NCBI RefSeq assembly: GCF_003990975.1
Contig: NZ_RZJR01000002.1
Location: forward strand, 282,741-346,740
Source: Cohnella sp. AR92
GTDB lineage: Bacteria > Bacillota > Bacilli > Paenibacillales > Paenibacillaceae
DNA length: 64,000 nt
Reading direction: 5' to 3'
Part shown: positions 10,429 through 49,498 of the stretch, piece by piece
Layout: each line of letters starts with the position of its first letter
How positions within the stretch are numbered: position 1 is the first letter of the stretch
The notes under the pieces: model-generated
Told to the model about the DNA's origin: nothing
Seen by the model: only the letters and a program-made list of their open reading frames with translations
The model's database searches: none
Translations under genes and position numbers: made by a program

Positions 10429-10712
10429 GATGTTGCCGTACGGCACTATCTCCGCACCCCGCACCGCCTCTACTCGCCGAGATGTTGCCGTACGACACTA
10501 TCCCGAGGTAACTCGGCAGCTCTTCCCTCTCTTCGGCAGGAATTAGTCTCCGATGAGACTTATTCAGCAGCGCGCCTCCTCCCGCGAAGGGAATTAGTCT
10601 CCAGCGAGTCTAACTCGGCAGCTCCTCCCTCTCTTCGGCAGGAATTAGTCTCCGATGAGACTTATTCAGCAGCGCGCCTCCCCCCGCGACCGGAATTAGT
10701 CTACACACCCCC
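10429..10712. repeat. Intergenic hairpin repeat cluster (locus A), 51-bp spacing in its second half
   Basis: Two copies begin GATGTTGCC at 10429 and 10481 and carry a TGCCGTACGGCA-type palindrome. Three units then begin GGAATTAGTCTCC at 10539, 10590 and 10641, with a truncated one at 10692. These are spaced exactly 51 bp and carry hairpin cores such as AGTCTC-CGAT-GAGACT. Units at 10539 and 10641 are nearly identical, giving a 102-bp super-period. The cluster occupies the gene-free stretch between the regulator and the FAD oxidoreductase; open frames inside it have no ribosome site. Confidence 0.85.
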
Positions 10713-10737
10713 AAAACCGCCGTTTTAAAAAGTAATA

Positions 10738-10920
10738 TTGGTTAAGAAGCTGGTTCGGCAAGACTTCGGCGTACCCGAGTTCTTGCTGCCGCCTTACGCT
10801 TTGTTTAACAATGAGATGCTCACGACGTTTATCAAAAATCTTGGCCATGATTTGTTCAGCGGTTCGTGCTGCAATCCCGGGTATCGTATCGATCCGGTCC
10901 AGGTCATATGCCGAGCCTCT
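10738..10920 (-). pseudogene. Probable transposase remnant (IS110-like C-terminal helix-hairpin-helix)
   Basis: A minus-strand frame without start or ribosome site translates to a piece beginning near AYDLDRIDTIPGI, then AARTAEQIMAKIF. This resembles the LxxIPGIGxxTAxxIxAEI segment of IS110 transposases. The frame runs on for about 30 further residues (ending near AEVLPNQLLNQ). It abuts the stop codon of the FAD oxidoreductase. No inverted repeats or target duplication were seen. A non-transposase HhH protein fragment is possible. Confidence 0.4.
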
Positions 10921-13159
10921 AGTTTTCCGAATAGCAACGAATCTCGTGAACGACGGCGGAAGGCGATCCGTTAATCGCCAGGAACGAGACGCGCAGCCGG
11001 TTCGTTCGCGCCTTCTTCGGAAGAACGTGCCGGACGTGCCGTTGATATTGGTCGTTTACTCGCAATGCTTCCCGCCACTTTCCTTCCTCCCAAATCTCGA
11101 TTGCGTACTCCCCCGGACATTCCGGTTCACGGAAGAAAGCCGGGTACCGGTTGTAATCTTGAAGCAGATGCCCCGGGAAGGTCAGCTCGACGACGCCTAC
11201 CGTTACGGGCTCGTTCCAGGCGAGCTCCAGCCACTGCTCCGACACGGGGAGTTCCGGATCGGATCGCCACATGTTCGCCGCGCGGTACGGCCGGGATGCC
11301 CCGCTTGCAGCGGAGGCGGCGGAATAGACGGACTGAGCGGGCTCGACGCGGAATGCGAAGGAGCGTCCGTCATCCCGGCTGCGCAGCTTTCCAGAATCGA
11401 TCTCGTAAGCCGAAGGCTGGCCGGGCGCGAGCCGCTCGGACAGATGCCAACGGACCGACGACGACGAGGTTAAGTCCAACCGTACGTATCCTTCCGTCCG
11501 GCGTTCGTCTGCGGACACGTCGACCGGCCATTCGATCCAACCGGTATAGCCTGGCGGGACGATGAATTCCCCCCGGCGCAAAGGCGGTAAATCCTTCGGA
11601 GTCCGGTAATCCCAAATGTGGCCGACGGGCACCAGCTCCGCCATTACCGTCCATTCGATCCCCGAATCGTTCGACAAATAGACCTTTAATGAGCGAAGCT
11701 CTCCCTTCGTGGCGATCCATTGGCTCCTGCGCACGTGAAGAGAAACGGATTCGCTTCCGTCCGGTTCGCCCGATCCGTCCGACAACTGCTCGCTGCTCGC
11801 GGATAGGACGGCCTTCCTCGCCAAGTCCTTCTCGTCCCGATGCTCCACGTTCGGCAGGAAGCAGCCATCCCGCAGCAGAAGCTGCTGCACTTCGCCGATC
11901 GCGAGTTCCGGCACGTCCGGTACGGCGATCCCCCTTCTGAGGGCGACGGCCGCGGCGGTTCCCGCCGCTTGCCCCATGAGCGCGGTCGTCGCCATGACGC
12001 GAACCGTGCCGAGAGCCGCATGGGTGACGCTGACGTTGCGACCCGCCATCAGCAGGTTATCGATATCCTTGGCGATCAGAATACGCAGAGGAATGCCGTA
12101 CGGCCCGCAGATCTCGCTCGCCCCGGGCAGCTCGCTCGTCGGAGCCAGCAGACCGCCCGCGACGTGCAAGTCGACGTACCAGCCGCCGAAGGCGACCTCG
12201 TCTGGGAATACGGTGCCTCGCAGCGGATCGTGCTCCGTCATGAGGTAACGGCCCACAATCCGACGGCTCTCCCGCTTGCCCGGCACTTGCCCGATCCAAT
12301 CGAGCGCGTACGTGGAAGCGAGCTTCTTCGTATTCGGGTCTTTGTTCTTGATCCAATCCCAGATGCCGAACACATGCCTAGTCAGCTCGTGGCGAATAAG
12401 CTCTGCGTCGCGGATCGTGTCCCATGGGGCGCTCAGCTCGATCCACCAGTAACCGGCCCGAATATCGTAAGGCTTTCGGTTATGGGCATAAAAAAAAGCG
12501 GGATCGTCGTAGACCGCCGCCCATTCGGGCGCCCGATACGGCACGGGACGTCCCGTGTCCTTAGCGCGGAAATGAATCGTGCTTCCCATTGTCTCGCCGC
12601 TTGCCCGTTCCGGCGCGTGCGGCTCCCCGAACTCGTGCCTGCTCTCGGTTCCCATTCGCCATTCGTTGCCGGCGAGAGCGGCCACGATCCCGTCTCCCGT
12701 GCAATCGACGAACGTCTTCGCCCAGAATTCGAGCTCGGTCTCCGCTGCCCCGACCCGCCCGACGACGGCTTCGATCGTTCTTCCGGACGCGTCCATCTTA
12801 ACGGAGAAGATCGTCGTGTTTAGGTACAGGCTGAGCCCTGGCGTCCGAACGGCCAGAGAGTACAGCGTCAAATCCCACAGGCTGTTCGTCCAGCCATTGT
12901 TGACGAACTGCTCGTGGTTGATCGCCCGATCCTCCGCCATCGCTTCGCTCAGAATGCCGGTCTCCCGGGCATACGCGTGGAAGCGCGCCGCCCCGTGGGG
13001 CGTCACCCTTACCTCGGAGGAGCTGTTCCCTCCGAGCACCGGCCGATCGTGGACAAGCGCCGTCCTCGCCCCGTGCCGGGCGGCCGCCACCGCGGCGCAC
13101 AGACCGGCCAGTCCGCCGCCGCAGACGACCAGGTCGTATTCCAATCGTTCCTTCCTCAT
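10919..13159 (-). CDS. FAD-dependent oxidoreductase with C-terminal beta-rich region
   Basis: The 746-residue product starts at ATG 13157-13159, which overlaps the preceding stop as ATGA; a longer upstream frame is rejected. The N-terminal Rossmann motif GGGLAGLCAAVAAARHG (about residues 14-30) and GGNSS binding segment mark the FAD_oxidored family. A further FAD contact region lies near NLLMAGRNVS. The last 250 residues contain a jelly-roll-like region. Family members accompany sugar-catabolic genes in Paenibacillaceae; the substrate is unknown. It is the last gene of a run of overlapping genes with a Gfo/Idh dehydrogenase and a sugar isomerase, so oxidation of a sugar or glycoside is a reasonable inference. 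Confidence 0.85.
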   Translation of the reverse strand: MRKERLEYDLVVCGGGLAGLCAAVAAARHGARTALVHDRPVLGGNSSSEVRVTPHGAARFHAYARETGILSEAMAEDRAINHEQFVNNGWTNSLWDLTLYSLAVRTPGLSLYLNTTIFSVKMDASGRTIEAVVGRVGAAETELEFWAKTFVDCTGDGIVAALAGNEWRMGTESRHEFGEPHAPERASGETMGSTIHFRAKDTGRPVPYRAPEWAAVYDDPAFFYAHNRKPYDIRAGYWWIELSAPWDTIRDAELIRHELTRHVFGIWDWIKNKDPNTKKLASTYALDWIGQVPGKRESRRIVGRYLMTEHDPLRGTVFPDEVAFGGWYVDLHVAGGLLAPTSELPGASEICGPYGIPLRILIAKDIDNLLMAGRNVSVTHAALGTVRVMATTALMGQAAGTAAAVALRRGIAVPDVPELAIGEVQQLLLRDGCFLPNVEHRDEKDLARKAVLSASSEQLSDGSGEPDGSESVSLHVRRSQWIATKGELRSLKVYLSNDSGIEWTVMAELVPVGHIWDYRTPKDLPPLRRGEFIVPPGYTGWIEWPVDVSADERRTEGYVRLDLTSSSSVRWHLSERLAPGQPSAYEIDSGKLRSRDDGRSFAFRVEPAQSVYSAASAASGASRPYRAANMWRSDPELPVSEQWLELAWNEPVTVGVVELTFPGHLLQDYNRYPAFFREPECPGEYAIEIWEEGKWREALRVNDQYQRHVRHVLPKKARTNRLRVSFLAINGSPSAVVHEIRCYSEN

Positions 13160-14181
13160 CTCGCTTCTTCCCCTTCTTCCCGACGGCCGAACCGGCTCTC
13201 TCGCCGAAGAACGGCTTCGGCCAGCTCGACCGATTGAACCGCCGAAGCGGCGTCGTGCTCCGGCCTCGTTCCCGCTCTCAGATGATCCAAGAATGATGCG
13301 TTCTCCGCGTAGAACCCGTTCACTATGTCGTCCTCCGCACCGTCCTCGTCGCCGAGCCATCTCTCGATCCGCTCGTTGCCGCGATACCGCTCCGCTTCCC
13401 CCGGCGAATCTCCCGATGTCCAGAAAGGCAGCCGCGCGAGCAGAGTCTCGTCCTCCGACATCAGAACGGCTCTCTCCATGACGGCTCCCGATACCGGAAA
13501 ATAATTCAGGGCGAACGTTACGCCCCCTTCAAGCTCGCCAGCCAGAGACACGTTCACGACGTTGCCGCCAAGATGCGCAAGCGGTCGATAGGCGATGCGG
13601 ACAGTGCGATAATCGGAGCCTGCCCAATATCGGATCGCGTCGATGCCGTGGATTAACGTAACGGACGCATCTTCCGAATCGGTTCGGCCGACCCGGTATA
13701 TATCGTACTGAACATGGTGCAGACCACCCTCTCGGCGCCGCGCGCCCGACCACTCGCGAACCCGACGGGACAGCGGCATGAAGCGCCGGTTAAAGGCGAC
13801 CTGGTTCGGAACGCTGCTTCCGTCCTCTCGCGAAGCGGCGCGGACGATGCCGAGCGTCTCCGTCCGCGACAAGCCGGGCGGCTTCTCCATCAGCACCGGG
13901 TATCCGCGCTCGAGGAGACCGATGGCAACCTTTGCGACCAGAGGAGCCGGGACGGCCAGAACGATCGCATCCGGCTGCTCCCGACGCAGCGCTTCCTCCA
14001 GGTCTCCATACGAGCGCCGGAAGCCGAACCGCTCCGCGAAGAGACCCGCTATTCCGGCGTCAAGGTCCGCGCAGGCGGCGAGCTCGACGTCGAGATGGGC
14101 GGCGGCGTATCGCCTGAGCGCGGGCCCATGGCCGCGGCGGGAGATGCCTCCGCACCCGACGAGCAGAACGCGCAGGCTCAT
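13156..14181 (-). CDS. Gfo/Idh/MocA-family NAD(P)-dependent oxidoreductase
   Basis: A 341-residue protein starting at ATG 14179-14181, which overlaps the upstream stop by 4 bp. The N-terminal dinucleotide fold has GCGGISRRGH (residues 9-18). The family EKP motif (MEKPPGLS) supplies the conserved Lys, and LIHGIDAIRYW supplies the usual catalytic His. Such enzymes oxidise or reduce sugar hydroxyls, including 3-keto-glycoside formation. It is flanked by a TIM-barrel isomerase and an FAD oxidoreductase. The exact substrate cannot be read from sequence. Confidence 0.88.
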   Translation of the reverse strand: MSLRVLLVGCGGISRRGHGPALRRYAAAHLDVELAACADLDAGIAGLFAERFGFRRSYGDLEEALRREQPDAIVLAVPAPLVAKVAIGLLERGYPVLMEKPPGLSRTETLGIVRAASREDGSSVPNQVAFNRRFMPLSRRVREWSGARRREGGLHHVQYDIYRVGRTDSEDASVTLIHGIDAIRYWAGSDYRTVRIAYRPLAHLGGNVVNVSLAGELEGGVTFALNYFPVSGAVMERAVLMSEDETLLARLPFWTSGDSPGEAERYRGNERIERWLGDEDGAEDDIVNGFYAENASFLDHLRAGTRPEHDAASAVQSVELAEAVLRRESRFGRREEGEEAR

Positions 14182-15020
14182 GGCGCCGCACCACCCGTCT
14201 TCGCGAGCAAGCCGCTCAGCACGGGAAGCTCCCGCGGCAAGTGGACGTCCGCCGGCTCCCAGCCGTACCATTCGCCGCTTAGATAACCCTCGTAGGCGCC
14301 TGCGCGAAGCAGGTCGAGGATGCGGGAGTGGTCGACGACGCCCAAACCGATCGGGCGATAGTCCGGGTGGCGTCCCGAACCGTTGGACTCCGGCGCTCCC
14401 GGCGATCGGGGAGCCCCGTCATGCACGTGAACGTGCCGGATCCACGGTGCCAGAGCGGCGTATGCCGCATCGGGCGAAGCCCCGCCCTCCAGCTGCGTAT
14501 GCAAGACATCCCATAGTACTCCGACATGGTCGTCGCTAATGGCCTCCAGAACGCCGGCCATCACGCGCGGATCCGACCAGTCGTCATGCGTCTCGAGCAG
14601 CAGAACGACGCCTGACCTTCGGGCGGACGGCGCGAGCGACCGCAGCGAATCGACGACGGAACGCTTCGATTCCGCCAAGCTTCCGCCGGGCGGTATTCGT
14701 CCGCAGAAGACGCGAACGCAGGGAATGCCGAGATCCTCGGCCAACCGGACGTAAGCTTCCGTCTCGGCGACATGCGTCTCCGCGTCGGCCGCGTCGGAGA
14801 AGCGGCAGGAAACGCTTAGGCAGCGCAGGGCGACTCCCGCCCGATCCGCCTGCTTCTTAAGTTGCTTTCTCCGTTCGAAGCCCGCGGCCAATTCGGCGCC
14901 ATGGCCGTGGCCGATTCCGGCACGAAGTTCCAGTCCTTCGCAGCCGTAGCGGCGGGCGGCGACGAGAAGCTCTTCCAGCGTCCATTCGGGAGCGGATGCG
15001 GAATGCAGGGCGATTTTCAT
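14178..15020 (-). CDS. Sugar phosphate isomerase/epimerase-like TIM-barrel protein (AP-endonuclease 2 superfamily)
   Basis: A 280-residue protein with the family metal ligands E143 (LLLETHDD), D171 (LWDVLHT), H198 (HVHVHDG) and E250 (SGEWYGW), so it is probably an active divalent-metal enzyme. Members isomerise or epimerise sugars or inositols; some act as lyases on 3-keto-glycosides together with Gfo/Idh partners. It overlaps the Gfo/Idh gene by 4 bp, and the AraC gene ends 35 bp upstream. Confidence 0.85.
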   Translation of the reverse strand: MKIALHSASAPEWTLEELLVAARRYGCEGLELRAGIGHGHGAELAAGFERRKQLKKQADRAGVALRCLSVSCRFSDAADAETHVAETEAYVRLAEDLGIPCVRVFCGRIPPGGSLAESKRSVVDSLRSLAPSARRSGVVLLLETHDDWSDPRVMAGVLEAISDDHVGVLWDVLHTQLEGGASPDAAYAALAPWIRHVHVHDGAPRSPGAPESNGSGRHPDYRPIGLGVVDHSRILDLLRAGAYEGYLSGEWYGWEPADVHLPRELPVLSGLLAKTGGAAP

Positions 15021-15055
15021 AACGAGGAACCTCCTTCAAGTAATCGTCTCCCCCT

Positions 15056-15919
15056 TCAAGTTCGCTTGCGGAACTGCTGGGGAGAGACGCCCGTCTTCTT
15101 CTTGAATTGATTGCAGAAGTACGCGCTGCTATTGAAGCCGCTTATTCTCGCGATCTGCGAGATCGGCATGTCCGTCGTCGTCAGCAGCAGGCATGCCTCG
15201 CGCACTCTTCGTGCCATCACGTATTGGGTAAGGGTGTTGCCCGTCTCTTCCTTGAACAGATGCGAGGCGTAGAAGGGGGACAGATGAAGGCTTCGAGCCA
15301 GCCGCTCGAGGGAGAAGTCCTCCCGGTAATGGTCTTCGATCCAACTCATCATCCTCTCGATATGCCGGCCTTCGCGCAGCGCGGAATTCCGTTCCTCTTC
15401 CCCTGCGCCTCTCGTTCCGAGCTTCCGAAGCTGGCGTAGCAGATCGAGCAGGAACAAGCCGAACTCCTCCTGCTGCGCGAAGACGGCCGCTCCGCGAAGC
15501 CTCTCGTCTAGTTCGCGGCACATCGCGTCGAACGCAGAGCGCCGCTCGGGATCCAGGACATAGATCGAAGCGTCCGCCGTTCCTCGCCACAACTGCTGGT
15601 AGAAGCCATGCAATGCGGGGAACGGGGAGACGAACCGCTCGAACGCGTACGGATCGAATACGATCGGCGTGCGGACGTACGTCGTCTCCATCTTGTAGTG
15701 ATGCAACTGGTAAGGCTGGCAGACGACAAGCGTCCCCGGCCTGACCGCGTGCAATTTGCCCTCGACGATAACCTGGCCCGTTCCTTCCGCGACGAACACC
15801 ATCTCGATCCCTTGGTGAGCGTTCACGATCTCCCATCCGTTCTCCTTCGTCACATGTTGGTATAAGAAAAGAAAGCCGCGCTCCTCGAACCGGGGAATCG
15901 GATTCACGAGGCGGCTCAC
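15056..15919 (-). CDS. AraC-family transcriptional regulator with N-terminal cupin
   Basis: A 287-residue regulator. An AraC-ligand cupin-like region fills residues 1-150 (NAHQGIEMVFVAEGTGQVIVEG), and two helix-turn-helix units lie at about 190-285 (ARSLHLSPFYASHLFKEETG, then ARISGFNSSAYFCNQFKKKTG). It starts with GTG overlapping the esterase stop (GTGA). Sited among the esterase, isomerase and oxidoreductase genes, it probably regulates that catabolic set in response to a small sugar-like ligand. Confidence 0.9.
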   Translation of the reverse strand: MSRLVNPIPRFEERGFLFLYQHVTKENGWEIVNAHQGIEMVFVAEGTGQVIVEGKLHAVRPGTLVVCQPYQLHHYKMETTYVRTPIVFDPYAFERFVSPFPALHGFYQQLWRGTADASIYVLDPERRSAFDAMCRELDERLRGAAVFAQQEEFGLFLLDLLRQLRKLGTRGAGEEERNSALREGRHIERMMSWIEDHYREDFSLERLARSLHLSPFYASHLFKEETGNTLTQYVMARRVREACLLLTTTDMPISQIARISGFNSSAYFCNQFKKKTGVSPQQFRKRT

Positions 15920-16974
15920 GGCTCCTGCCCTCGTCCGCCGAGACGCTCTGCCAGCCAGTCGAACGACCGGGCGCCGGAGATCTCGTGCTTGCCTTCGAAG
16001 ACGTGCGTATCGAAGCTCTCCCCGGCGCCATGCTCGCGATAGATGCGCCGCAGCCGGGTCTCCGCCGCCCGCACCCCTGCGAGCGGGAAGAGCGGGTCAT
16101 CCCGACCCGCTTCGAGAAATACGGCCCGAGGCGCGATCAGCCCAATCAAGTCGGGCATATCGCCGAGCTCCGCGATGCCGGGAACGTAGTCGCATAGGCA
16201 GTGCTGGCGGGAGAAATAGTAGCTGTCGCCGTACGTGTTCGGATAGCCGCTTAGCACGCTGGCGCGCAGTCTCTCGTCCAGCGCGGCGGCCAGATAGCCG
16301 ACGAACGCCCCGCCGGACAAGCCCATGGCGCCGACGCCGCCGGGCTTAACCTCGTCTCTCGACAATGCATAGTCGACCGCCCGAATCGCTTCGAACGTCC
16401 GAATGCCCGCCAGCGTCCCTCCGAGATGGATCAAGTAAGACGACAGCTTATAGCAGGACGACTTGCGCAGGTCCTCGGGGGTCTCGTCGAGCGAGGCGTC
16501 TTCCTCAAGACGCCGGTCGCCGAACCCGATCAGCTCCGGCACGATCGCGACGAAGCCCCTTCGCGCGAGCGAGAGGGCGAAGTGCTTGTGGATGCCCTCC
16601 CCCTCCTCGCGCTCCGAGCCGTCCGGACCGAGGCCGACCAGCTCCCGGCTGCCGTAGCCGTGGCCGTGTAAGGCGAGCACGGCGGGAAGCGGTCCTTGCG
16701 GCCGCTTCGGGATAAGAACGTAGACCGGCATCCGAAGACCGCCGAGCGTGCCGATCTCGACCCGCTCGCGGATGTGGTCGCCCCGGTCGATCCGCTCGAG
16801 CAGCTTCGGCACAAGCGCATCGGGCTTCGCCACGTCGATCCTAAGAATCTTGCTAAGCCTCGCTCTCCTGTCTTGAATGGCCTCTTCGTTCTCCCAATCC
16901 AGCGAATCCGAGATTCGCTTCGCCCGTTCCGCCCAATCGTTCACGAAGGCGTTAACCGAACCGCGCGTGCTCAT
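15916..16974 (-). CDS. Alpha/beta hydrolase, acetyl-xylan-esterase/dienelactone-hydrolase-like
   Basis: A 352-residue cytoplasmic hydrolase. An oxyanion/lid segment LALHGHGYG precedes the nucleophile Ser in GLSGGAF. The acid is probably the Asp of EAGRDDPLFP and the base the His of FEGKHEI. The start overlaps the monooxygenase stop by 4 bp and the gene overlaps the AraC gene by 4 bp. Similar proteins deacylate sugars or split cyclic esters; the substrate is not identifiable. Confidence 0.82.
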   Translation of the reverse strand: MSTRGSVNAFVNDWAERAKRISDSLDWENEEAIQDRRARLSKILRIDVAKPDALVPKLLERIDRGDHIRERVEIGTLGGLRMPVYVLIPKRPQGPLPAVLALHGHGYGSRELVGLGPDGSEREEGEGIHKHFALSLARRGFVAIVPELIGFGDRRLEEDASLDETPEDLRKSSCYKLSSYLIHLGGTLAGIRTFEAIRAVDYALSRDEVKPGGVGAMGLSGGAFVGYLAAALDERLRASVLSGYPNTYGDSYYFSRQHCLCDYVPGIAELGDMPDLIGLIAPRAVFLEAGRDDPLFPLAGVRAAETRLRRIYREHGAGESFDTHVFEGKHEISGARSFDWLAERLGGRGQEP

Positions 16975-18281
16975 CGCTCTCTCATCTCCTCGTCTCGTCC
17001 AAGTGAATTGCCCGGCTCCGCAAGCCGCCCGAAGGCGCCTTCTGCTTCTTCTACTGCCGCATTCTCGCCCTCGTCTTCGACTCTAGCTTCGGCCCTGGCT
17101 TCGGTCAGCCCAAGATGGCTTCGCAGCGTATCCGTCTCGTAATCGGCTCGGAACAGCCCTCTCGAGCGCAAGATCGGAAGGACGAGCTCGACGAAGTCGC
17201 TGAGACTGTTCGGATCGTCTCCGCCGACGACGAAGCCGTCCGCAGCCCCCGATTCGAAATAAATCTGCAGGGCGTCCGCGATCGCTTCCGGAGTGCCGAC
17301 GAACGGCGTCGGCGGTGACATCCAACGGTAAGCCGCTTGCCTGAGCGTGAGCCTTAGCTCCCTCGCTTCCCGCTTAATCCGGTCCGTTGCGCTCTGGTAG
17401 CTCTTCCGGCCAAGATCGCCGAGATCCGGGAACGGAGCGTCGGGCGGGTACACGGTGAAGTCGTGATCGTCGAAAAACTGAGCCAAGTACCGAAGGGCGT
17501 GCTCGAGTCCGACGAGAGCGTCGAGCCGCTCGCGCTTCCGCACGGCCTCCTCCCGCGTCGGCGCGATCGTGACGTTGACCGCAGGGAAGACGAGCGGTCC
17601 CCCATCGGTTCTTCCCAGCTCGCCCGTCCGGGTATGGATGGCTTCGTACAGCCGCTTCGCTTCTTCGAGCGGACGGTACGCGGTCATGACGGCATCGGCG
17701 TGCAGGGCGGCGAAGGCGATGCCGTCTTCCGACGAGCCGGCCTGGAAGACGACGGGATGTGCGGTCCCGTCTTCCGTCCAACATCTCCGCGCCGCCCTCA
17801 TGAATTCGCCGGCCAGCCGATAGCGCTCGCCGTGTTCGGGATGCTCGGGCGGGCGTCCGGCCCTGCCGAAGTTCGCCGCGGCTCCAGCCATGCCGGTCGT
17901 AACCGCGTTCCAGCCCGCCCGCTCGCCGCTCAGCCGCTGGAGCGAACCGAGCTGCCTCGCGGTCGCGCTCGGTTCGTTATACGTCGTCGACAGCGTCCCG
18001 ACGAGACCGATGCGCTCCGTAACGGGTGCCAGAGCGGCCAGCAGCGTCACCGGCTCAAGATGATTGAGAAAATGCGGGGTCGACCGCTCGTGGATATGCA
18101 GCACGTCCGCGACGAATACGAAGTCCATCTTACCTTCCTCGGCCTTCTTCGCTTGTCGGGCGTACGCTTGAATATCGATGCTGGCGTCGGCGGGCATCTC
18201 GGGATGGCGCCAGCCTCCGTAACCGCCTCCGACTCCGTGGAGAAGGGCTCCCAGCCTCATCTGTCTTCTTCTGCCGTTCAT
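16971..18281 (-). CDS. LLM-class flavin-dependent monooxygenase, NtaA/SnaA/DszA subfamily
   Basis: A 436-residue FMN-dependent monooxygenase. Features include an N-terminal LGALLHG strand, KAEEGKMDFVFVAD, the family segment AGWNAVTT (about residues 125-132) and VFQAGSSEDG. The start follows AGGAGGAGCGTC. The last 45 residues are charged and low-complexity (EARAEARVEDEGENAAVEEA), beyond the usual domain. Relatives desulfurise or oxidise sulfonates, thioethers and chelators. The cystine-type ABC genes 66 bp upstream suggest sulfur scavenging, as in B. subtilis ytm-type operons; that role is inference. Confidence 0.88.
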   Translation of the reverse strand: MNGRRRQMRLGALLHGVGGGYGGWRHPEMPADASIDIQAYARQAKKAEEGKMDFVFVADVLHIHERSTPHFLNHLEPVTLLAALAPVTERIGLVGTLSTTYNEPSATARQLGSLQRLSGERAGWNAVTTGMAGAAANFGRAGRPPEHPEHGERYRLAGEFMRAARRCWTEDGTAHPVVFQAGSSEDGIAFAALHADAVMTAYRPLEEAKRLYEAIHTRTGELGRTDGGPLVFPAVNVTIAPTREEAVRKRERLDALVGLEHALRYLAQFFDDHDFTVYPPDAPFPDLGDLGRKSYQSATDRIKREARELRLTLRQAAYRWMSPPTPFVGTPEAIADALQIYFESGAADGFVVGGDDPNSLSDFVELVLPILRSRGLFRADYETDTLRSHLGLTEARAEARVEDEGENAAVEEAEGAFGRLAEPGNSLGRDEEMRER

Positions 18282-18347
18282 GACGCTCCTCCTGTTCCGT
18301 TGCGCCCTGCAGCTCCTGACGGAATTTTCCGCCGAACTTCCCCACTG

Positions 18348-19124: not shown

Positions 19125-19140
19125 GGACGCCACTCCCCTC

Positions 19141-19818: not shown

Positions 19819-19834
19819 GAAGCTTCATTCTCCT

Positions 19835-24695: not shown

Positions 24696-24805
24696 TTTAG
24701 TCTCCAATGAGGCTAACCCTGCGACGCTCCCCACCATACGGCACGCTGAGGGGAATAGTCTCCGACGAGACTAGCTCGGCAACGAGCGCTCCCGCCTACG
24801 CGACC
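24696..24805. repeat. Two copies of the intergenic hairpin repeat (locus B)
   Basis: Units around TAGTCTCC at 24698 and 24756 carry hairpin cores AGTCTC-CAAT-GAGGCT and AGTCTC-CGAC-GAGACT. Each is followed by GC-rich flanks with CTCGGCAACGAGCGCTCCCG, as at locus A. They fill most of the 377-bp gap between the MFS and LacI genes, which holds no credible gene. Confidence 0.7.
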
Positions 24806-24831: not shown

Positions 24832-24860
24832 AAAAAAAGCAACCCCATTAAGGAGTTGCT
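24832..24860 (-). terminator. Terminator of the LacI-type regulator gene
   Basis: On the minus strand GCAACTCC-TTAAT-GGGGTTGC (one wobble pair) is followed by seven T residues. It sits just past the 17-bp repeats that follow the stop codon. Confidence 0.85.
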
Positions 24861-24927
24861 GATGTGCTTATGTTCCTGATGTGCTTATGTTCCTGATGTG
24901 CTTATGCTGCTGATGTGCTTATTTTGC
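24860..24927. repeat. Four tandem 17-bp repeats overlapping the LacI gene stop
   Basis: Units of TGATGTGCTTATGTTCC start at 24860, 24877, 24894 and 24911. The first two are identical and the last two diverge at their ends. The fourth contains the regulator's TAA (24919-24921), so the array begins inside the coding end and runs into the terminator. A period of 17 is not a multiple of three. Confidence 0.9.
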
Positions 24928-33263: not shown

Positions 33264-33300
33264 CGCCGCGATGTTGCCTTACGGTACTATCTTCCTGCGC
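33264..33300. repeat. Single copy of the GATGTTGCC hairpin repeat (locus C)
   Basis: CGCCGCGATGTTGCCTTACG followed by GTACTATC closely matches the units at 10429 and 10481. It lies in the gap between the rpsT terminator and the end of holA, which is otherwise empty. Confidence 0.6.
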
Positions 33301-39402: not shown

Positions 39403-39433
39403 CTCATCCCGATCTTCTTCATTCCAACTAAGC

Positions 39434-39961: not shown

Positions 39962-40049
39962 CGCCTTCCCAACCTCCAATTGCCGTCTAGATAGGCTGTC
40001 AAGCCCAGGGCGCGAGAGCGCGCCGTCTCCTCTAGGATACCGCGTTCCG

Positions 40050-41381
<1,332 letters not shown>

Positions 41382-41437
41382 TTACCCATTGTCTCACATT
41401 TTTATCCAAGTGAAAAGATAGGAATTAAAAAGTCGTC

Positions 41438-41962: not shown

Positions 41963-42069
41963 TTTCTTTTTAACCCTCCTTAAGGATCCTTTTCCGGAAA
42001 AACGTCATGTCGGTCAAGCCATCCCTCATAGAATGTGAAGAAGTTGAAGCTTAAGGGGAGGGGACGAAG

Positions 42070-42906
42070 ATGAGGGTCGGCTTCATCGGCGCTGGCAGCA
42101 TGGGCAGCATGCTGACGGGTTCTTTCATCCGCTCCGGGGCGCTTCGCCCGTCGGACATTATCCTGTCTACCCGTACCTTGTCCAAAGCGAATGCGCTCGC
42201 GAACCGGTACCCCGGCATCCAGATCGCCCCTTCCAATGCGAGTGCGGTTCTAGGTTCGGATCTTGTTTTCCTGTGCGTGAAGCCCTTGGACTTCCGTTCC
42301 GTGCTGCAGGAGATCGCTCCTTCCTTGCAGCCATGGCAGATCGTCGTCTCGATTACGAGCCCGGTCCGGCTCGAAGCCCTGGAACGGCTCATTCCGTCCA
42401 AGGCGGCCAAGATCATTCCGAGCATCGTGAACGAGACGCTGGCGGGCTCCTCGCTCGTCATGTTCGGAAGCCGGCTGGAGGAGCGCGACCGCGCTCTGCT
42501 CTTCCGCTTGTTCTCGGCCATCAGCCGTCCCGTTCAGATCGCCGAGGAAGACGTGCGCGTCGCTTCGGACATCGCCAGCTGCGGACCCGCCTTCATGGCC
42601 AATCTGCTGGAGCAATTCATCGAAGCAGCCGTCTCCACGACGGGCGTCTCCCGCGAGACTGCGACCGTGCTGGCCCGAGACATGCTTCTCGGCACGGCCC
42701 GATTGCTGCAGAACGCCGGTTGTTCCCCGGCCGAGCTGCAGAAGCGGGTATCCGTCCCGGGAGGAATTACCGCGGTCGCTCTGGAAGAGCTGAAGGACGC
42801 CACGAACGGCGCCTTCCTGCGGGTGCTCCAAGCGACTCACGCCAAGTTCGCAGAGGATCTGGAGAAGGTCGACGCGTCTCTTAACGACAGTCAGGATCAA
42901 CCGTAA
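42070..42906 (+). CDS. comER: Late competence protein ComER, pyrroline-5-carboxylate reductase-like
   Basis: A 278-residue protein of the ProC family with N-terminal GFIGAGSMGSML nucleotide fold, CVKPLDFRSVL, and C-terminal SVPGGITAVALEELKD. Divergent position next to comEA identifies it as ComER rather than housekeeping proC. The start follows GGGGAGGGGACGAAG. Its function in competence is unclear even in B. subtilis, and proline synthesis remains possible. Confidence 0.88.
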   Translation: MRVGFIGAGSMGSMLTGSFIRSGALRPSDIILSTRTLSKANALANRYPGIQIAPSNASAVLGSDLVFLCVKPLDFRSVLQEIAPSLQPWQIVVSITSPVRLEALERLIPSKAAKIIPSIVNETLAGSSLVMFGSRLEERDRALLFRLFSAISRPVQIAEEDVRVASDIASCGPAFMANLLEQFIEAAVSTTGVSRETATVLARDMLLGTARLLQNAGCSPAELQKRVSVPGGITAVALEELKDATNGAFLRVLQATHAKFAEDLEKVDASLNDSQDQP

Positions 42907-42914
42907 AGATGACA

Positions 42915-42953
42915 AAAGGGGCGCGCCTCTCCATGAGAGAGGCCGCCCCTTAT
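42915..42953. terminator. Convergent terminator of comER and leuS
   Basis: AAGGGGCGCGCCTCTC and GAGAGGCCGCCCCTT pair around CATGA with a one-base bulge. The minus-strand product ends CCCCTTTTG, so it serves leuS best. Confidence 0.75.
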
Positions 42954-42956
42954 CAG

Positions 42957-45392
42957 TTAGTTGGCTACAATGTTGACGAGCTTGCCTTTGACGGCTATGA
43001 CTTTGCGAATGGTCTTGCCGGAGATCAGCGATTGCACCTTCTCCAGGGAGAGGGCTTGCTCTTGCAGGCCCGCTTCATCGAGGTCGGCCGCAACCATCAC
43101 GCGTTCGGCGATCTTGCCGTTCACCTGTACGACGATCTCGACTTCCGCGTCCACGGTCAGCGCCGGATCGTATTCCGGCCATGGAACGTAGCTGATCGAG
43201 CCCTTGTTCCCGAGACGCTCCCACAGCTCTTCCGCGATATGCGGGGCGGTAGGGGACAGCATCTGCACGAAGTGTTCCATCGCCTGCTTCGGAAGAACGT
43301 CGGTCTTGTAAGCTTCGTTGATGAAGATCATCATCTGGCTGATCGCCGTGTTGAAGCGCAAGCCTTCGTAATCCTCGGTAATCTTCTTGATCGTCTTGTG
43401 CCAAGTGCGGCGGAATGCCTCGTCGCCCGGCACGTCCTGGATCTTCTCGTTCAAGCTGCCGTTATCGTCCACGAACAATCTCCAGACGCGGCCGAGGAAG
43501 CGGTACATCCCTTCGACTCCGTTGGTGTTCCATGGCTTCGTCGCTTCCAGAGGACCCATGAACATCTCGTACAAGCGAAGCGTATCCGCGCCGAATTCGT
43601 TCACGATGTCGTCCGGGTTGATGACGTTGCCGCGGGACTTCGACATCTTCTCGTTGTTCGTGCCGAGAATCATCCCTTGGTTGACGAGCTTGTGGAACGG
43701 TTCCTTCGTCGAGACGACGCCGATATCGTACAGAACCTTGTGCCAGAAGCGGGCGTAGAGCAAGTGAAGCACCGCATGCTCGGCGCCGCCGATGTACAGG
43801 TCGACCGGCAGCCACTGCTTCTGCTTCTCGAAGGAGACGATCTCCTTGTCGTTCTTCGGATCGATGTACCGCAGGTAGTACCAAGAGCTTCCCGCCCATT
43901 GCGGCATGGTGTTCGTCTCGCGGCGAGCCTTGCGGCCGTCCTTGCCGACGTAGTTCACCCATTCGGTCGCGTTCGCGAGCGGGGACTCGCCCGTGCCCGA
44001 CGGCTCGATTCTCTCCATCTCCGGCAGCAGGAGCGGAAGCTCCTCTTCCGGCACGGTCTCCATCGTGCCGTCCTCGAAGTGCAGCACCGGAATCGGCTCG
44101 CCCCAATACCGCTGGCGGCTGAACAGCCAGTCGCGCAGTCGGTAGGTTACCTTGCCTTGGCCCTTGCCGTTCTCTTCCAAGTAGGAGATCATCTTCGCGA
44201 TCGCATCCGGAGTGGACAGGCCGTTCAGGAAGCCGGAATTGACATGCTCGCCGTCGCCGGTGAACGCCGCTTCCTTGACGTTGCCGCCGCTGACGACTTC
44301 GACGATGTTCAGGCCGAACTTCGTCGCGAACTCCCAGTCGCGCTCGTCATGCGCGGGGACCGCCATGATCGCGCCGGTGCCGTAGCCGCCGAGGACGTAG
44401 TCGGCGATCCAGATCGGCAGCTTCTCGCCGTTAACCGGGTTAACCGCATATGCGCCGGTGAAGACGCCGGTCTTCTCCTTGGCCAGCTCCGTACGCTCCA
44501 GGTCGCTCTTGCGCGACGCGAGCTCGATGTATTCCTCTACCGCCGCCTTCTGCCCGGCCGTCGTAATGGCGGATACCAGGTCATGCTCCGGCGCCAGTAC
44601 GCAGTAGGTCGCACCGTACAGCGTATCCGGACGGGTCGTGAACACGGTCAGCGACTGGCCCGCATGGCCCTCGATGTCGAAGCGGACTTCCGCGCCCGTC
44701 GACTTGCCGATCCAGTTGCGCTGCATGTCCTTGATGCTCTCCGACCAGTCGAGCTCCTCCAGGTCGTTCAGCAGGCGCTCCGCGTACTCGGTGATCTTGA
44801 GCATCCATTGGCGCATCGGCCGGCGAACGACCGGATGGCCGCCGCGCTCGCTCTTGCCGTCGATGACTTCTTCGTTCGCCAGCGTCGTGCCGAGCGCTTC
44901 GCACCAGTTGACCGGCACTTCGGCGATGTAGGCGAGGCCCTTCTTATACAATTGGATAAAAATCCACTGCGTCCACTTGTAATAGTCAGGATCGGTCGTG
45001 CTGATCTCGTGGTCCCAATCGTACGAGAAGCCGAGCGACTTGATCTGGCGGCGGAAGTTGTCGATATTGATCTTCGTGAACTCGGCCGGATGACGCCCCG
45101 TCTGGATCGCGTATTGCTCGGCCGGCAGGCCGAACGCGTCCCAGCCCATCGGATGCAGCACGTTGAAGCCGCGCATCCGCTTGAAGCGGCTCACGATGTC
45201 CGTCGCCGTGTAGCCTTCCGGATGGCCGACGTGAAGACCCGCTCCGGACGGATACGGGAACATGTCGAGCGCGTAGAATTTCGGTTTGCCCGCATCGTCG
45301 GTCGTGCGGAAGGTCTTGTTCTCGTCCCAGTAGCCCTGCCACTTGGGTTCGATGCTCTGCGGCTTATAGCCGTGCGGATTGTCTTGCGCCAT
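42957..45392 (-). CDS. leuS: Leucyl-tRNA synthetase
   Basis: An 811-residue class I synthetase charging tRNA-Leu. The HIGH box is HVGHPEG (near residue 55) with upstream [11 protein letters not shown], and the KMSKS box is KMSKSRGN (near 580). The CP1 editing insert ([19 protein letters not shown]) and anticodon-binding domain are complete. The start follows GAGAGGGGTTTACGACA. A T-box leader with a CUC specifier controls expression by uncharged tRNA-Leu. Confidence 0.98.
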
Positions 45393-45432
45393 TGTCGTAA
45401 ACCCCTCTCTAACAGTCGAAAAAACGTCTTAA

Positions 45433-45449
45433 GCGGCTCCGGGAGCCGC
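45433..45449 (-). other. Short hairpin between the T-box terminator and leuS
   Basis: GCGGCTCC (45433-45440), one base, then GGAGCCGC (45442-45449) form a perfect stem. On the minus strand it is followed about 8 bp later by TTTTTT, so it could be a second attenuator or an mRNA-stabilising stem. Confidence 0.4.
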
Positions 45450-45473
45450 CAAAACTCGCATAGAAACAAAAAA

Positions 45474-45725
45474 CCTCCCGCCCCAGCGCCGAATTCACGC
45501 TAGGGACGAGAGGATTATTCCCGTGGTACCACCCTAGTTGACGGCTGCCCTGCTTGGGCATCCCGTCCACTCTTCCTTCGTAACGAGAAGGCGACGCCGC
45601 GCTTGCCGCCGAATGCGGGTTACGCGCGGTGGCTCCAAGGCGAGTTCGCGGCTACCGCCAACCGGCTCGCACCGAAGCGCCGGCTCTCTGAATGACGGAT
45701 AACGACTACTGTTCCTTTTCCCAGC
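45474..45725 (-). promoter_or_regulatory. Leucine T-box riboswitch with terminator/antiterminator
   Basis: The conserved T-box AGGGTGGTACCACGG lies at 45521-45535. The terminator pairs CCTCTCGTCCCTAGCG with CGCTGGGGCGGGAGG and ends in TTTTTT (45474-45513). In Stem I, AGAGAG and GGTTGGCGGTAGCC elements precede the specifier, read as CUC at 45642-45644, consistent with leucine. Uncharged tRNA-Leu would stabilise the antiterminator and turn leuS on. Confidence 0.93.
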
Positions 45726-45742
45726 CAAATAAATATGCCCTG

Positions 45743-45772
45743 ATTATAGCCAAACGGTCCAAACGATGTCAA
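45743..45772 (-). promoter_or_regulatory. Consensus sigma-A promoter of the leuS T-box transcript
   Basis: Minus-strand TTGACA (45767-45772), an 18-bp spacer and TATAAT (45743-45748), both perfect. The -35 hexamer contains the stop codon of the upstream TetR-type gene. Confidence 0.9.
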
Positions 45773-46392
45773 GCGCGCGGCCCGATTCCGTTCCAGAACA
45801 GGTCGACGATCAGCTTGGACAGCTCTTCGCCGTCCGTCTCCTCCGACAGGTCTTCTTCCCGGTTCCCCAGCATCAGCAGCGCGGCGAACGAATGGGCGAG
45901 CACCATCGGGCTGAGCGGAGACGCGATCTCCTTATCCCGAAGCGCCTGCTCGAAAAATTCCGCCAACGCCTGATGGATGCCGGATTCCGCCTCCCGAATC
46001 CGATCGTGCTGCTCCTGGGACAAGGAGGAGAGCGCCTCGCGCATCATGGTCTCGAATTCGACATGGGTGGACGACATCTTCACCCGCGCCAGGGTCGTCA
46101 GCCGGGTTCTATAATCGACCTCTTCCTTGAGAATCCTCGCCGTGCTGACTCGAATCCGTCCCATCATCTCCGAGATCGCTTCCGTAAACAGCTGGGCCTT
46201 GTTCGAGAAGTAATAGTAGACCGAAGCTTTGGTCACGCCCGCTTTCTCCGCGATCTGGTTGATCGAGACGGGCTCATAGCCGAATTCCAGGAACATTTGG
46301 GCCGCCGAGTTCAGCACCGTTTCCCGCATGGGGAAGGCTTGGTCGGCGACCTTGGGGCGTCCCGGGGATCTCTTGGGCTTCGTCTTGTTCAT
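45769..46392 (-). CDS. TetR/AcrR-family regulator of the divergent MMPL transporter
   Basis: A 207-residue repressor with the TetR HTH near residues 27-60 (MFLEFGYEPVSINQIAEKAG, TKASVYYYFSNKAQLF) and a C-terminal ligand domain. ATG 46392 is preferred; an upstream TTG adds eight residues. It is divergent from a MMPL exporter whose promoter is spanned by two TAATTAAC repeats, so it probably represses that gene until a toxic or lipid ligand binds. Confidence 0.9.
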   Translation of the reverse strand: MNKTKPKRSPGRPKVADQAFPMRETVLNSAAQMFLEFGYEPVSINQIAEKAGVTKASVYYYFSNKAQLFTEAISEMMGRIRVSTARILKEEVDYRTRLTTLARVKMSSTHVEFETMMREALSSLSQEQHDRIREAESGIHQALAEFFEQALRDKEIASPLSPMVLAHSFAALLMLGNREEDLSEETDGEELSKLIVDLFWNGIGPRA

Positions 46393-46466
46393 ATTCCGAA
46401 TATCCTCTCTAAGCAATCATCAAACCTTCCAAACATCATACCGCAAAAATTTTGTTCGAGCTACGT

Positions 46467-46499
46467 TTGATAATTAACCTTCCGGTATATATAATTAAC
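46467..46499 (+). promoter_or_regulatory. MMPL promoter with overlapping direct-repeat operator
   Basis: TTGATA (46467-46472), a 17-bp spacer and TATAAT (46490-46495). Direct repeats TAATTAAC at 46471-46478 and 46492-46499, 21 bp apart, overlap both hexamers and are a likely TetR binding site. Confidence 0.7.
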
Positions 46500-46549
46500 G
46501 GTAACCGAGTCCATTATACACTAAAAAAAGAAGCGGGGAGAGAAAAACG

Positions 46550-48772
46550 ATGCAAGAAAGCAGCTTTCTAGGAAGATGGGTCGCGGGCAAGAGGAGCCGA
46601 TGGATCACGCTATTGGCGTGGATCGTCGCGGTGGCGCTTCTGAACGTCCTGCTGCCCGCGGTCGGCGGCCAAGAGAAGAATAACGCCCCCAATCTGAGCG
46701 ATTCGAAGCCTTCCGTTCAAGCGGACGCGATCACGGAGAAGGAATTCCCGAGCGGCGCGGACATTCCGGCCTTGTTCGTCTGGCATCGGGAAGGCGGTCT
46801 GACGGACGACGATCTGGGGAAAATCCAACTATTATCCGAGAAGCTGACTTCGGAGCCGGCGCCTCACCAGACGACCGTCCCTCCGCTTCATCGGATGCCG
46901 CTGCAGGCGCTTAAAGCGCAGCTCTCGGAGGACGGCAGCACGCTCGTGTCTCCGGTCCTGTTCGACAAGACGGCCGATACGGACCAGTTAGGCGAAGGCT
47001 TGGACAAGATCAAAGCGGAGGCCGCATCCTTGTTCGGCGCCGATCCGTTCGAAGCCGCGACCGGCTCCTCCGATCTCAGCGCCAGAGTAAGCGGTCCGGT
47101 CGGCATTCAAGTCGATGCGACCGGGCTTTTCAAGAATGCGGACTTCGCCCTGATGGCGGCGACCGTCCTGCTAGTGCTCGTGCTTCTGCTGCTCATCTAC
47201 CGCTCTCCGATCCTGGCCTTTATTCCGCTGATCGCCGTAGGCTTCGCTTATGGCGCGGTTAGCCCGATACTGGGCTGGATGGCCAGCGAAGGGTGGATCA
47301 CCGTCGATTCCCAGGGGATCTCTATCATGACGGTATTGCTTTTCGGCGCGGGGACGGATTATTGCCTCTTCCTCATCGCCCGGTTCCGCCAGCTGCTGAA
47401 GACCGAACCGAACAAGTTCGCCGCGCTCCGCCGCGCCATTACGGATTCTTCCGGTGCGATCGCGATGAGCGGCTTCACGGTCGTGCTTGCCCTATTCGCG
47501 CTGCTGCTTGCGGAATATGGCGCCTATCATCGCTTCGCCGCCCCGTTCAGCATCGCGATTCTGATCATGGGCGTCGCATCTCTTACGCTGGTGCCGGCCC
47601 TGCTCGCCATTTTCGGACGCGCGTCCTTCTGGCCGATCATTCCGCGCACGAAGGAGCAGCAGGCCGAACGCGCCGCCAGCCGCGGCAAACCGGCTCCGGC
47701 CGCCGAGAAGGCTCCGCGCAACCGCGTCGGTTCGCTCGTCGTCCGCCGTCCGTGGACGATCGTCGTCGTGTGCGTGGTCGTGCTCGGCGTGCTGGCGGGA
47801 ACGAGCTCGCAGGTCAAATTCACCTATGACATCCTCTCTTCGTTTCCGAAGGATATGGAGTCCCGCGAAGGCTTCGCGCTGATCGGCGAGAAGTTCAGCC
47901 CCGGGGAGCTCGCTCCCGCGAAGGTGATTGTCGATTCGCAGGGCAAAGACGTCTCCGGCCTGGCCGAATCGCTGAAGTCGCTCGATTATATCAGCTCGGT
48001 CGCAGAACCGCAGGTTGGCTCGAGCAACCCGAACATTCTGATGTATGAAGTGCAGTTCGCCATGAATCCTTACTCGCTCGAAGCGATGGGACATATCCCG
48101 GATCTTCGCGAGACGGCGCAGAGCGCGTTGACATCGGCGGGAGTCGCCGATGCGGCGGGCAGCGTCTGGATCGGCGGGCAAACGGCCGAGCAGCATGACA
48201 ACAAGGTTACGGGGGATCGCGATACGAAGGTCATCATCCCCGTCGTCATCGGTCTCATCACCCTGCTGCTCCTGCTGTACCTGCGTTCGGTCGTGGCGAC
48301 CGCGTACCTCGTGCTGACGGTTATCCTGTCCTACTTCTCGGCCCTCGGACTCGGCTGGCTCGTTCTCCATTACTTGATGGGAGCGGACGCCATCCAAGGA
48401 GCCATCCCGCTGTACGCGTTCGTCTTCCTCGTGGCGCTTGGGGAGGACTACAACATCTTCATGATCTCGAGCATCTGGCAGAAGCGCAAGGTCATGCCGC
48501 TGAAGCAGGCGATCAAGGAAGGCGTCGGCGAGACCGGCTCGGTCATCACGTCCGCCGGCTTGATCCTCGCGGGTACGTTCGCCGTGCTCGGCACGCTGCC
48601 GATCCAGGTGCTCGTGCAGTTCGGCACCGTGACCGCCATCGGCGTGCTGCTCGATACGTTCGTCGTGCGGCCGTTCCTCGTGCCGGCGATCACGACCCTG
48701 CTCGGCCGCCGCGCCTTCTGGCCGGGGCGGTATGAGCCGGTGGAAGAGCGCAAGAGTGCCCGCGCGGAATAA
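46550..48772 (+). CDS. MMPL/RND-superfamily transporter
   Basis: A 740-residue exporter with the MMPL topology. There is a TM at about residues 18-40, an extracytoplasmic domain, a TM cluster from about 195, a cytoplasmic loop near 365-400, and a second copy of the same pattern. GAGTDYCLFLIARFRQ and GEDYNIFMISSIWQKR are the paired TM4/TM10 proton-relay motifs (GxDY). It uses proton motive force to export lipids, peptides or drugs. Control is probably by the divergent TetR gene. Confidence 0.92.
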   Translation: MQESSFLGRWVAGKRSRWITLLAWIVAVALLNVLLPAVGGQEKNNAPNLSDSKPSVQADAITEKEFPSGADIPALFVWHREGGLTDDDLGKIQLLSEKLTSEPAPHQTTVPPLHRMPLQALKAQLSEDGSTLVSPVLFDKTADTDQLGEGLDKIKAEAASLFGADPFEAATGSSDLSARVSGPVGIQVDATGLFKNADFALMAATVLLVLVLLLLIYRSPILAFIPLIAVGFAYGAVSPILGWMASEGWITVDSQGISIMTVLLFGAGTDYCLFLIARFRQLLKTEPNKFAALRRAITDSSGAIAMSGFTVVLALFALLLAEYGAYHRFAAPFSIAILIMGVASLTLVPALLAIFGRASFWPIIPRTKEQQAERAASRGKPAPAAEKAPRNRVGSLVVRRPWTIVVVCVVVLGVLAGTSSQVKFTYDILSSFPKDMESREGFALIGEKFSPGELAPAKVIVDSQGKDVSGLAESLKSLDYISSVAEPQVGSSNPNILMYEVQFAMNPYSLEAMGHIPDLRETAQSALTSAGVADAAGSVWIGGQTAEQHDNKVTGDRDTKVIIPVVIGLITLLLLLYLRSVVATAYLVLTVILSYFSALGLGWLVLHYLMGADAIQGAIPLYAFVFLVALGEDYNIFMISSIWQKRKVMPLKQAIKEGVGETGSVITSAGLILAGTFAVLGTLPIQVLVQFGTVTAIGVLLDTFVVRPFLVPAITTLLGRRAFWPGRYEPVEERKSARAE

Positions 48773-48786
48773 AAGGTGTAAGCAAA

Positions 48787-48815
48787 GGAGCACGCCCGGG
48801 GGGCGTGCTCCTTTT
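48787..48815 (+). terminator. Terminator of the MMPL gene
   Basis: GGAGCACGCCC and GGGCGTGCTCC pair around GGG and are followed by TTTTG, 15 bp after the stop. Confidence 0.88.
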
Positions 48816-48858
48816 GTGCCTGCACCTTTTGCTTTGGCACCTCAACTAGCGATCAAGT

Positions 48859-49498
48859 GAGTAACCATTACCCATTTCCGAGCTCCATCCCGCGTTCGGC
48901 GAGATATTTGAGTAACTATTACCCATTTCCGAGCTCCATCCCGCATTCGGCGAGATATTTGAGTAACCATTACCCATTTCCGAGCTTCTTCCCGCGTTCG
49001 GCGAGATATTTGAGTAACCATTACCCATTTCCGAGCTTCTTCCCGCATCCGGCGAGATATTTGAGTAACCATTACCCAATTCCGAGCGCCCTCCCGCATG
49101 TAGCGAGATATTTGAGTAACCATTACCCATTTCGGGGCATCATCCGGCATGTAGCGAGATATTTGAGTAACCGTTACCCATTTCCGAGCTTCTTCCCGCA
49201 TCTGGCGAGATATTTGAGTAACCGTTACCCATTTCCGAGCTTCTTCCCGCGTTCGGCGAGATATTTGAGTAACCGTTACCCTTTTCCGAGCTCCTCCATC
49301 CCGCATCTGGCGAGTTATTTGAGTAACCATTACCCATTTCCGAGCTTCTTCCCGCATCCGGCGAGATATTTGAGTAACCATTACCCAATTCCGAGCGCCC
49401 TCCCGCATGTAGCGAGATATTTGAGTAACCATTACCCATTTCGGGGCATCATCCGGCGTTTGGCGAGAAAAAGGAGTAACTAATCCTCAATAGGCTCC
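48859..49498. repeat. Tandem array of twelve 51-bp units (locus D) plus a partial unit
   Basis: Units begin GAGTAAC at 48859, 48910, 48961, 49012, 49063, 49114, 49165, 49216, 49267, 49321, 49372, 49423 and 49474. The spacing is exactly 51 bp except one unit of 54. Every full unit has a GTAA-N3-TTAC palindrome, and most have a CGAGCTTCTTCCCGC block and GGCGAGATATTT. Positions 49012-49148 and 49321-49457 are identical, a duplicated three-unit block. Frames open on both strands (17-residue peptide repeats) lack ribosome sites. The array fills the gap between the MMPL gene and the methyltransferase. Confidence 0.95.

Follow-up and report, generated by a model that had tools for sequence, protein, structure and literature searches.

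Palindromic arrays in a Cohnella genome

The window analyzed here, 64,000 nucleotides (nt) of Cohnella sp. AR92 (G000:C12:282741-346740, in a genome of 6.02 Mb and 36 contigs), contains four intergenic loci with short palindromic cores, A to D (Table 1). Loci A and D belong to a Cohnella set of intergenic arrays. The unit of these arrays is a core of about 28 base pairs (bp), palindromic in most arrays, followed by a spacer of about 23 bp. Its length, 51 or 52 bp, is fixed, while its sequence differs between arrays and between species. Loci B and C hold paired and single cores of the same classes. The cores of all four loci lie where an earlier note on this DNA had placed them, and chance does not account for them: the genome has 98 occurrences of AGTCTCNNNNGAGACT and none of its reversed string. 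The same note had seen a 51-bp spacing common to A and D despite their different cores. This is exact for the second block of array A and holds for array D except for one 54-bp step.

Table 1. Arrays, single cores and one associated hairpin in the window.
Feature	Position	Strand	Description
Array A, first block	10430..10502	+	two TGCCGTACGGCA-class cores (10430-10450, 10482-10502), step 52 bp
Array A, second block	10509..10702	+	AGTCTC-N4-GAGACT cores at 10545-10560, 10596-10611 and 10647-10662, step 51 bp
Locus B	24699..24772	+	two AGTCTC-class cores, 24699-24714 (degenerate) and 24757-24772 (perfect), 58 bp apart
Locus C	33271..33291	+	one isolated TGCCGTACGGCA-class core
Terminator-like hairpin with T-run	48786..48816	+	after the MMPL gene, ahead of array D (by eye)
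Array D	48858..49468	+	12 GAGTAACCATTACCC-class cores, period 51, single 54-bp step

The first-block cores of array A differ from GATGTTGCCGTACGGCACTATC by 0 and 1 mismatches, and copies of this class in 52-bp steps are also found on contigs C6, C8, C12 and C35. In the second block the middle core (10596) carries one mismatch, and a degenerate fourth core lies near 10698. Tandem Repeats Finder (TRF) reports this block with period 51 (score 197) and with period 102 (score 360). Array D is reported with period 51, 11.9 copies and a score of 852. It lies between two convergent genes, an MMPL gene (46550-48772, + strand) and a methyltransferase gene (49514-50299, - strand). Its reading frames are open on both strands, as expected from periodicity alone. 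Locus C also sits between convergent genes, an open reading frame of 103 amino acids (+) and the gene for the DNA polymerase III delta subunit (-). Locus B is not an array. Its 58-bp interval is unique within the AGTCTC class, and the locus is likely the remnant of a former array.

Unit length is constant in unrelated sequences

A pattern-free TRF scan covered 1,635,125 bases in stretches, 27% of the genome, with no choice of period. It returned 58 arrays with a period of 40-70 bp and a score of at least 120, and 47 of these have period 51 or 52. The others have periods of 42, 45 (four arrays), 60 (five arrays) and 66 bp; by eye, the 45- and 60-bp arrays resemble reading-frame repeats. Ordinary slippage minisatellites would likewise be tandem, intergenic and partly decayed, as loci B and C are. 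Slippage does not account for unrelated sequences that share one period, and we regard it as a very improbable origin of the arrays.

Selecting periods of 51, 52 or their multiples and merging TRF rows gave 51 arrays. Dropping a period-207 array that looks collagen-like by eye left 50, with periods of 51 (25 arrays), 52 (23 arrays), 104 and 415 (one array each). The 52-bp units exclude protein-coding repeats for these 23 arrays, as the frame shifts with every unit. Palindromes were analyzed in the 32 arrays that remain after removal of 16 arrays below the palindrome cut-off and of the two with units of 104 or 415 bp. Array D is not part of this set because its palindrome scored under the cut-off.

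Within the 32 arrays, 173 of 175 centre-to-centre intervals measure 51 or 52 bp, a figure that gauges constancy within arrays only, since the arrays were pre-selected by period. By core class, the interval is 52 bp throughout in the TTGAAC class (37/37), the GTCGA class (14/14) and the TGCCGTACGGCA class (14/14). In the AGTCTC class it is 51 bp in 75 of 82 cases, 52 bp in five, and 50 and 53 bp once each; the GAGTAAC class has 20 intervals of 51 bp and eight of 52 bp.

The core classes include AGTCTC-N4-GAGACT, TGCCGTACGGCA, TTGAAC-N3-GTTCAA, GTCGA-N5-TCGAC and GAGTAAC/GGGTACC. Genome-wide, the TGCCGTACGGCA type has 26 matches with up to three mismatches (one site counted on both strands; control 0), and the GAGTAACCATTACCC type has 65 with up to two mismatches (control 7). 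Arrays reach 14 units, and blocks of different class are frequently adjacent. Array density is uneven, with 19 arrays in 360 kb on contig C35, 13 in 271 kb on C8, and one in 280 kb on C24, at the contig end. Arrays or cores are also found a few hundred bases or less from the start of contigs C5, C16, C19, C24, C35 and C36. Hence, arrays likely break assemblies, and draft genomes undercount them.

Cores are conserved within a class and spacers are nearly array-specific

In all 32 arrays, divergence is lower in the core than in the spacer (Wilcoxon p = 4.7e-10). At positions 2-12 from the centre the mean divergence is 0.02-0.21 and usually under 0.13; the centre itself has about 0.2 and the spacer 0.16-0.39. 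Per array, spacers differ between units by 0.11-0.58. Arrays of the same class share 0.61-0.83 of their core positions, while their spacers share 0.32-0.37, compared to 0.26-0.29 after shuffling. Spacers are thus nearly array-specific, with a small residual likeness within a class. The inner half-sites are specific to the class, and an outer GAGWTA...TAWCTC frame edges the palindromes of four classes. What stays the same within a class is thus the core, and what all classes have in common is the length.

This largely inverts the description in the earlier note of shared flanks around exchangeable cores. The proposed flank GCTCCTCCC occurs once per strand in the window. TTCGGC occurs 125 times, 58 and 67 on the two strands, and GCGAGAT 16 and 11 times; the shared flanks are not confirmed in the form described. 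What survives of a fixed frame is the unit length and, in part, the outer GAGWTA...TAWCTC letters; the nearly array-specific spacers do not fit it. The preference for a cassette of binding sites over minisatellite decay is borne out by the constrained core and the fixed spacing.

The earlier note named chance-level similarity between the flanks of A and D as the result that would refute it; in that test the similarity is weak. Their local alignment score is 25.5, compared to 14.5 ± 3.9 when unit columns are permuted and the period is kept; 12 of 500 permutations reach the real score, and four of 500 when permutation is limited to spacer columns. When two units of A are aligned with two of D, the score is equalled in 27 of 200 shuffles. 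A shuffle that destroys the 51-bp period (0/200) overstates the similarity. Shuffles reach the real score in 106 of 200 cases for loci B and D, and in none of 200 each for A and B and for A and C, pairs that have cores in common.

Arrays lie between convergent genes

Gene positions are our own, uncurated predictions from codon scores. Two arrays overlapped called genes, and these genes were dropped before intergenic regions were counted; the counts omit arrays at contig ends that lack a gene on one side. Although genes cover 80.7% of the sequence, 281 of 294 scored sites lie outside them. Only 13 of the 294 are isolated.

Arrays occupy 35 intergenic regions: 16 between convergent genes, 14 and 4 between co-oriented genes, and one between divergent genes. 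Among 674 other regions of at least 100 bp, 57 are convergent and 168 divergent. Convergent regions are therefore enriched (odds 9.1, p = 2.8e-8) and divergent regions depleted (odds 0.09, p = 9.6e-4). Of the gene ends, 50 of the 70 that face arrays are 3' ends. A terminator-like hairpin precedes the array at 28 of these 50, where shuffled sequences predict 5.5. This excess is suggestive only, because genes in general come close to it (148/344; p = 0.09 against the array-facing ends). The order of hairpin and array after the MMPL gene is also present in C. fermenti (L183).

Half-sites point to double-stranded DNA

Location at 3' ends raises the possibility that the palindromes are transcribed and act as RNA hairpins (3' stabilizers of mRNA, attenuators or processed small RNAs) that are tandem by chance. 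The loops of 3-5 nt found in most classes would permit hairpins. RNA stems should show G-U pairs above A-C mismatches on the transcribed strand. Among 2277 stem cells we count 77 G-T, 71 A-C and 273 other mismatches, hence no wobble signature, and no clear skew by gene context either.

The letters of the two half-sites also behave independently. All 13 array consensuses of the AGTCTC class have the same inner 5 bp in their two half-sites, whereas the left and right choices of G/A and T/A in the outer GAGWTA letters are independent of each other (Fisher p = 0.65 and 0.31, with units of one array not being independent of each other). Such independence argues against a fully paired stem. It fits two protein half-sites with tolerated letters. 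Judged from its sequence, the AGTCTC class has independent half-sites at constant helical phase, like an operator array bound by dimers, with one asymmetric outer position.

An RNA role has no need for a 51/52-bp ruler, and the terminator-like hairpins that already stand ahead of many arrays may speak against it as well. In an Rfam scan of the window, no family matched at the arrays. We therefore consider transcribed hairpins improbable.

Length persists between species while sequence turns over

Judged by the gpr gene, the closest named relatives of this genome are C. thailandensis (93% identity) and C. fermenti (92%). Two core classes searched by pattern have no arrays in 36 other Cohnella genomes. 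A longer pattern for the AGTCTC class finds 94 sites in this genome and none in 36 other Cohnella, and a wider scan of genome contigs, from which records of this genome itself were possibly excluded, revealed no adjacent pairs of AGTCTC cores. The TTGAAC class has 38 sites here and, across 37 Cohnella genomes, a single one elsewhere (in G006), coding-like by eye and without a tandem array. The GAGTAAC class is common to this genome and C. fermenti (L183). Outer letters similar to GAGWTA (GGAGTTA or GGAGATG) occur in some other Cohnella species.

In contrast, the unit length recurs. In 1.41 Mb of other Cohnella DNA (fetched loci, a small part of them overlapping), the period is 51 or 52 in 25 of the 28 arrays that fall in the 40-70 range, and their sequences are mostly different. 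The only other periods are 48, 50 and 54. Two of these arrays come from C. thailandensis (L213:579-809, period 50; L214:15087-15364, period 48) and have CAGTGCCTTATCC in common; the period-54 array, in L251, has two copies. A 77-bp-period array with 31-bp sub-units adjoins a 51-bp array in C. caldifontis (L272:11852-12469).

The complete chromosome of G001 contains 163 matches to AATTAGTCGG-N5-CCGCG within one mismatch (control 0). Among about 100 places listed, the matches run from 0.41 to 6.55 Mb and step by 51, 52 or multiples within clusters. Because this chromosome is complete, the arrays are not an artefact of draft assembly.

Single sites can be followed between species. At the gpr locus, arrays are found in 9 of 22 Cohnella loci, immediately after gpr in six of them, and in none of the 16 loci from Paenibacillus or Chengkuizengella (p = 0.005 for 9/22 against 0/16). 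Both flanks of array D could be matched in 14 relatives. Five of them have an array between the flanks (L183, L196, L197, L200, L247), with cores that differ in four of the five. Seven have gaps of 100-386 bp without an array, and L193 has a 902-bp gap that lacks periodicity. In C. thailandensis (L182), degenerate remnants of GAGTAAC type are visible by eye beside a transposase-bearing insertion. The transposase-like genes of that intergenic region (HTH_Tnp_1, HTH_21) lie at L182:822-1435. Thus, at one and the same site, arrays are present in some species and absent from others, and their cores turn over.

Known repeat systems and the search for a partner

Repetitive extragenic palindromic (REP) sequences, bacterial interspersed mosaic elements (BIMEs) and REP doublets forming hairpins (REPINs) are one of the nearest known likenesses, and the earlier note had likened the loci to REP/BIME logic. 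The parts of PMC3733652 on their distribution describe several REP classes per genome and extragenic palindromes mainly between convergent and co-oriented genes and at 3' ends. In Pseudomonas fluorescens, the results of PMC3116915 report some REPINs in tandem clusters, with next-neighbour peaks at 71, 110 and 184 bp, some of them adjoining REP-associated tyrosine transposases (RAYTs).

The Cohnella arrays share the short extragenic palindromes, the several classes and the convergent or 3'-end placement. They differ in that their units are head-to-tail rather than inverted doublets, that few occur singly, and that the 51/52-bp unit recurs in unrelated sequences and in other species. No constant GTAG/CGTC tag stands beside the cores in the consensus units of the 32 arrays, by eye. 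REP elements are recognized and cleaved as single-stranded DNA hairpins; in the AGTCTC class, the independent half-site letters speak against a stem that pairs throughout. The Pfam model Y1_Tnp, which covers RAYT-type proteins, finds no gene in this genome (the control rings in 5 of 14).

Across 37 Cohnella genomes Y1_Tnp matches in 12 and does not correlate with arrays. Nine array-bearing genomes were compared. G008 and G010 have a match, while G000, G001, G022, G026, G031, G032 and G033 have none. Within reach of the Pfam model, a RAYT partner is thereby ruled out in these seven, and the expectation of a RAYT-like partner that tracks the arrays fails. In G010 a Y1_Tnp gene (G010:C1:4241194-4241550, - strand) lies about 0.7 kb from a 51-bp array at the D site (L198:3817-3926), which we take as coincidence because other array genomes do without. 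We give hardly any credence to REP/BIME or REPIN elements mobilized by a RAYT as an account of the arrays.

Other systems share single features. Arrays of clustered regularly interspaced short palindromic repeats (CRISPRs) combine a partly palindromic conserved part with a spacer, and a molecular ruler sets their unit length. In Cohnella, however, spacers repeat within an array and cores differ between arrays: the 51/52-bp TRF units agree along their full length, spacers as well, at 57-100%. The sites parS, those of SlmA, and matS are palindromic double-stranded sites for dimeric proteins, some with higher-order complexes. The Cohnella sites differ by their rows at a constant five-turn pitch, in dozens of loci, many classes and with turnover between species. 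Eukaryotic centromere or satellite DNA combines constant unit length with fast sequence turnover; this is an analogy only, since the Cohnella arrays are short and occupy many intergenic sites of a bacterium.

Our searches of the open PubMed Central library brought up no description of such arrays. The part of a motif survey that deals with convergent genes (PMC5217627) contains other spaced motifs, none of the array kind. Set against the open-access literature, the combination of constant unit length with sequence turnover is new.

Possible explanations: rows of protein dimers or a selfish satellite

Spacing that persists while sequence is replaced calls for a ruler. A length of 51-52 bp corresponds to about five turns of B-DNA, which places successive cores on the same face of the helix. 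We give roughly even chances to the reading that, in each array, dimers of a DNA-binding protein occupy a series of double-stranded sites five helical turns apart. Neighbouring dimers would then sit side by side and touch along one helix face. Different core classes may have different readers, all from one protein family: the GAGWTA outer letters in four classes, together with similar letters elsewhere, suggest one family that changes its inner contacts. The arrays could plausibly serve as a nucleoprotein block or a topological buffer in the little-transcribed gaps that separate genes.

Several observations weigh against these rows of dimers. No partner protein was found, and no candidate emerged among 1322 predicted proteins (27% sample). 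Besides the pre-selection by period, the units of one array are copies and hence non-independent. The palindrome of 16 of the 50 arrays, array D included, falls under the cut-off, and two further arrays were called with units of 104 or 415 bp. Of 27 arrays from other species, with the best phase taken, nine have a strong palindrome (0.6 of pairs or more), nine a moderate one (0.50-0.57) and nine an unclear one; phase means are 0.20-0.27. Four of 13 junctions of less than 170 bp between classes fit 51/52 bp or its double, and nine do not. All fitting junctions join the AGTCTC and TGCCGTACGGCA classes (52 bp in three of seven, 102 bp in one of seven). A single class in G001 shows both 51 and 52 bp, and no 51/52-bp array was seen in the 160 kb sampled from G029 or the 120 kb sampled from G005. 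Finally, the outermost letter of the AGTCTC class is symmetric in 0 of 95 units, which a simple symmetric dimer does not explain. The same letter stands at both ends on one strand in 10 of 13 array consensuses of this class. The unit therefore has a polarity that none of the models considered explains.

A multi-copy family of DNA-binding paralogues was also considered as the partner and rejected. In an all-against-all comparison of the 1322 proteins, the families seen by eye were those of transporters, regulators and the like.

The main rival is a selfish satellite, which is compatible with rows of bound protein. In this scenario some recombinase or transposase that measures 51/52 bp multiplies the arrays, the palindrome is the site of the enzyme, and the cell gains no function. 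Presence and absence at the D site, species-specific cores and the remnants in C. thailandensis (seen by eye) are what such an element would leave, and it would explain why arrays avoid genes and divergent promoters. Against it, the few isolated sites suggest that single new insertions are rare, this genome has no Y1 transposase, and spacers that differ between arrays indicate that whole units do not simply spread by copying from one array to another. Moreover, an enzyme that duplicates fixed-length units regardless of their sequence is not known to us. We judge the selfish satellite rather unlikely.

Going beyond rows of dimers, we tentatively propose a bacterial counterpart of satellite DNA. 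The five-turn ruler would be conserved across Cohnella, while core and spacer would be replaced between species together with changes in a rapidly evolving partner protein, which would build a lattice between genes. This may be so, though we think it the less probable outcome. Repeat families are usually recognized by conserved sequence. Here length persists and sequence turns over, an indication of a physical ruler within bacterial chromatin. Should the partner protein be identified, Cohnella would become a bacterial system for the co-evolution of a protein and its sites over hundreds of sites. It would then be a parallel to the co-evolution of eukaryotic satellites and their proteins, and a handle on how gaps between convergent genes are organized.

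Other features of the window

Just past locus B, near the end of a LacI-family gene, a 17-bp unit (GTTCCTGATGTGCTTAT) is repeated four times in tandem (24855-24922); it is not of the 51/52-bp kind. In the Rfam scan only a T-box leader reached its gathering score (RF00230, 109 bits; 45499-45731, - strand). It lies upstream of a leucyl-tRNA synthetase-like gene of 811 amino acids (42957-45392, - strand).

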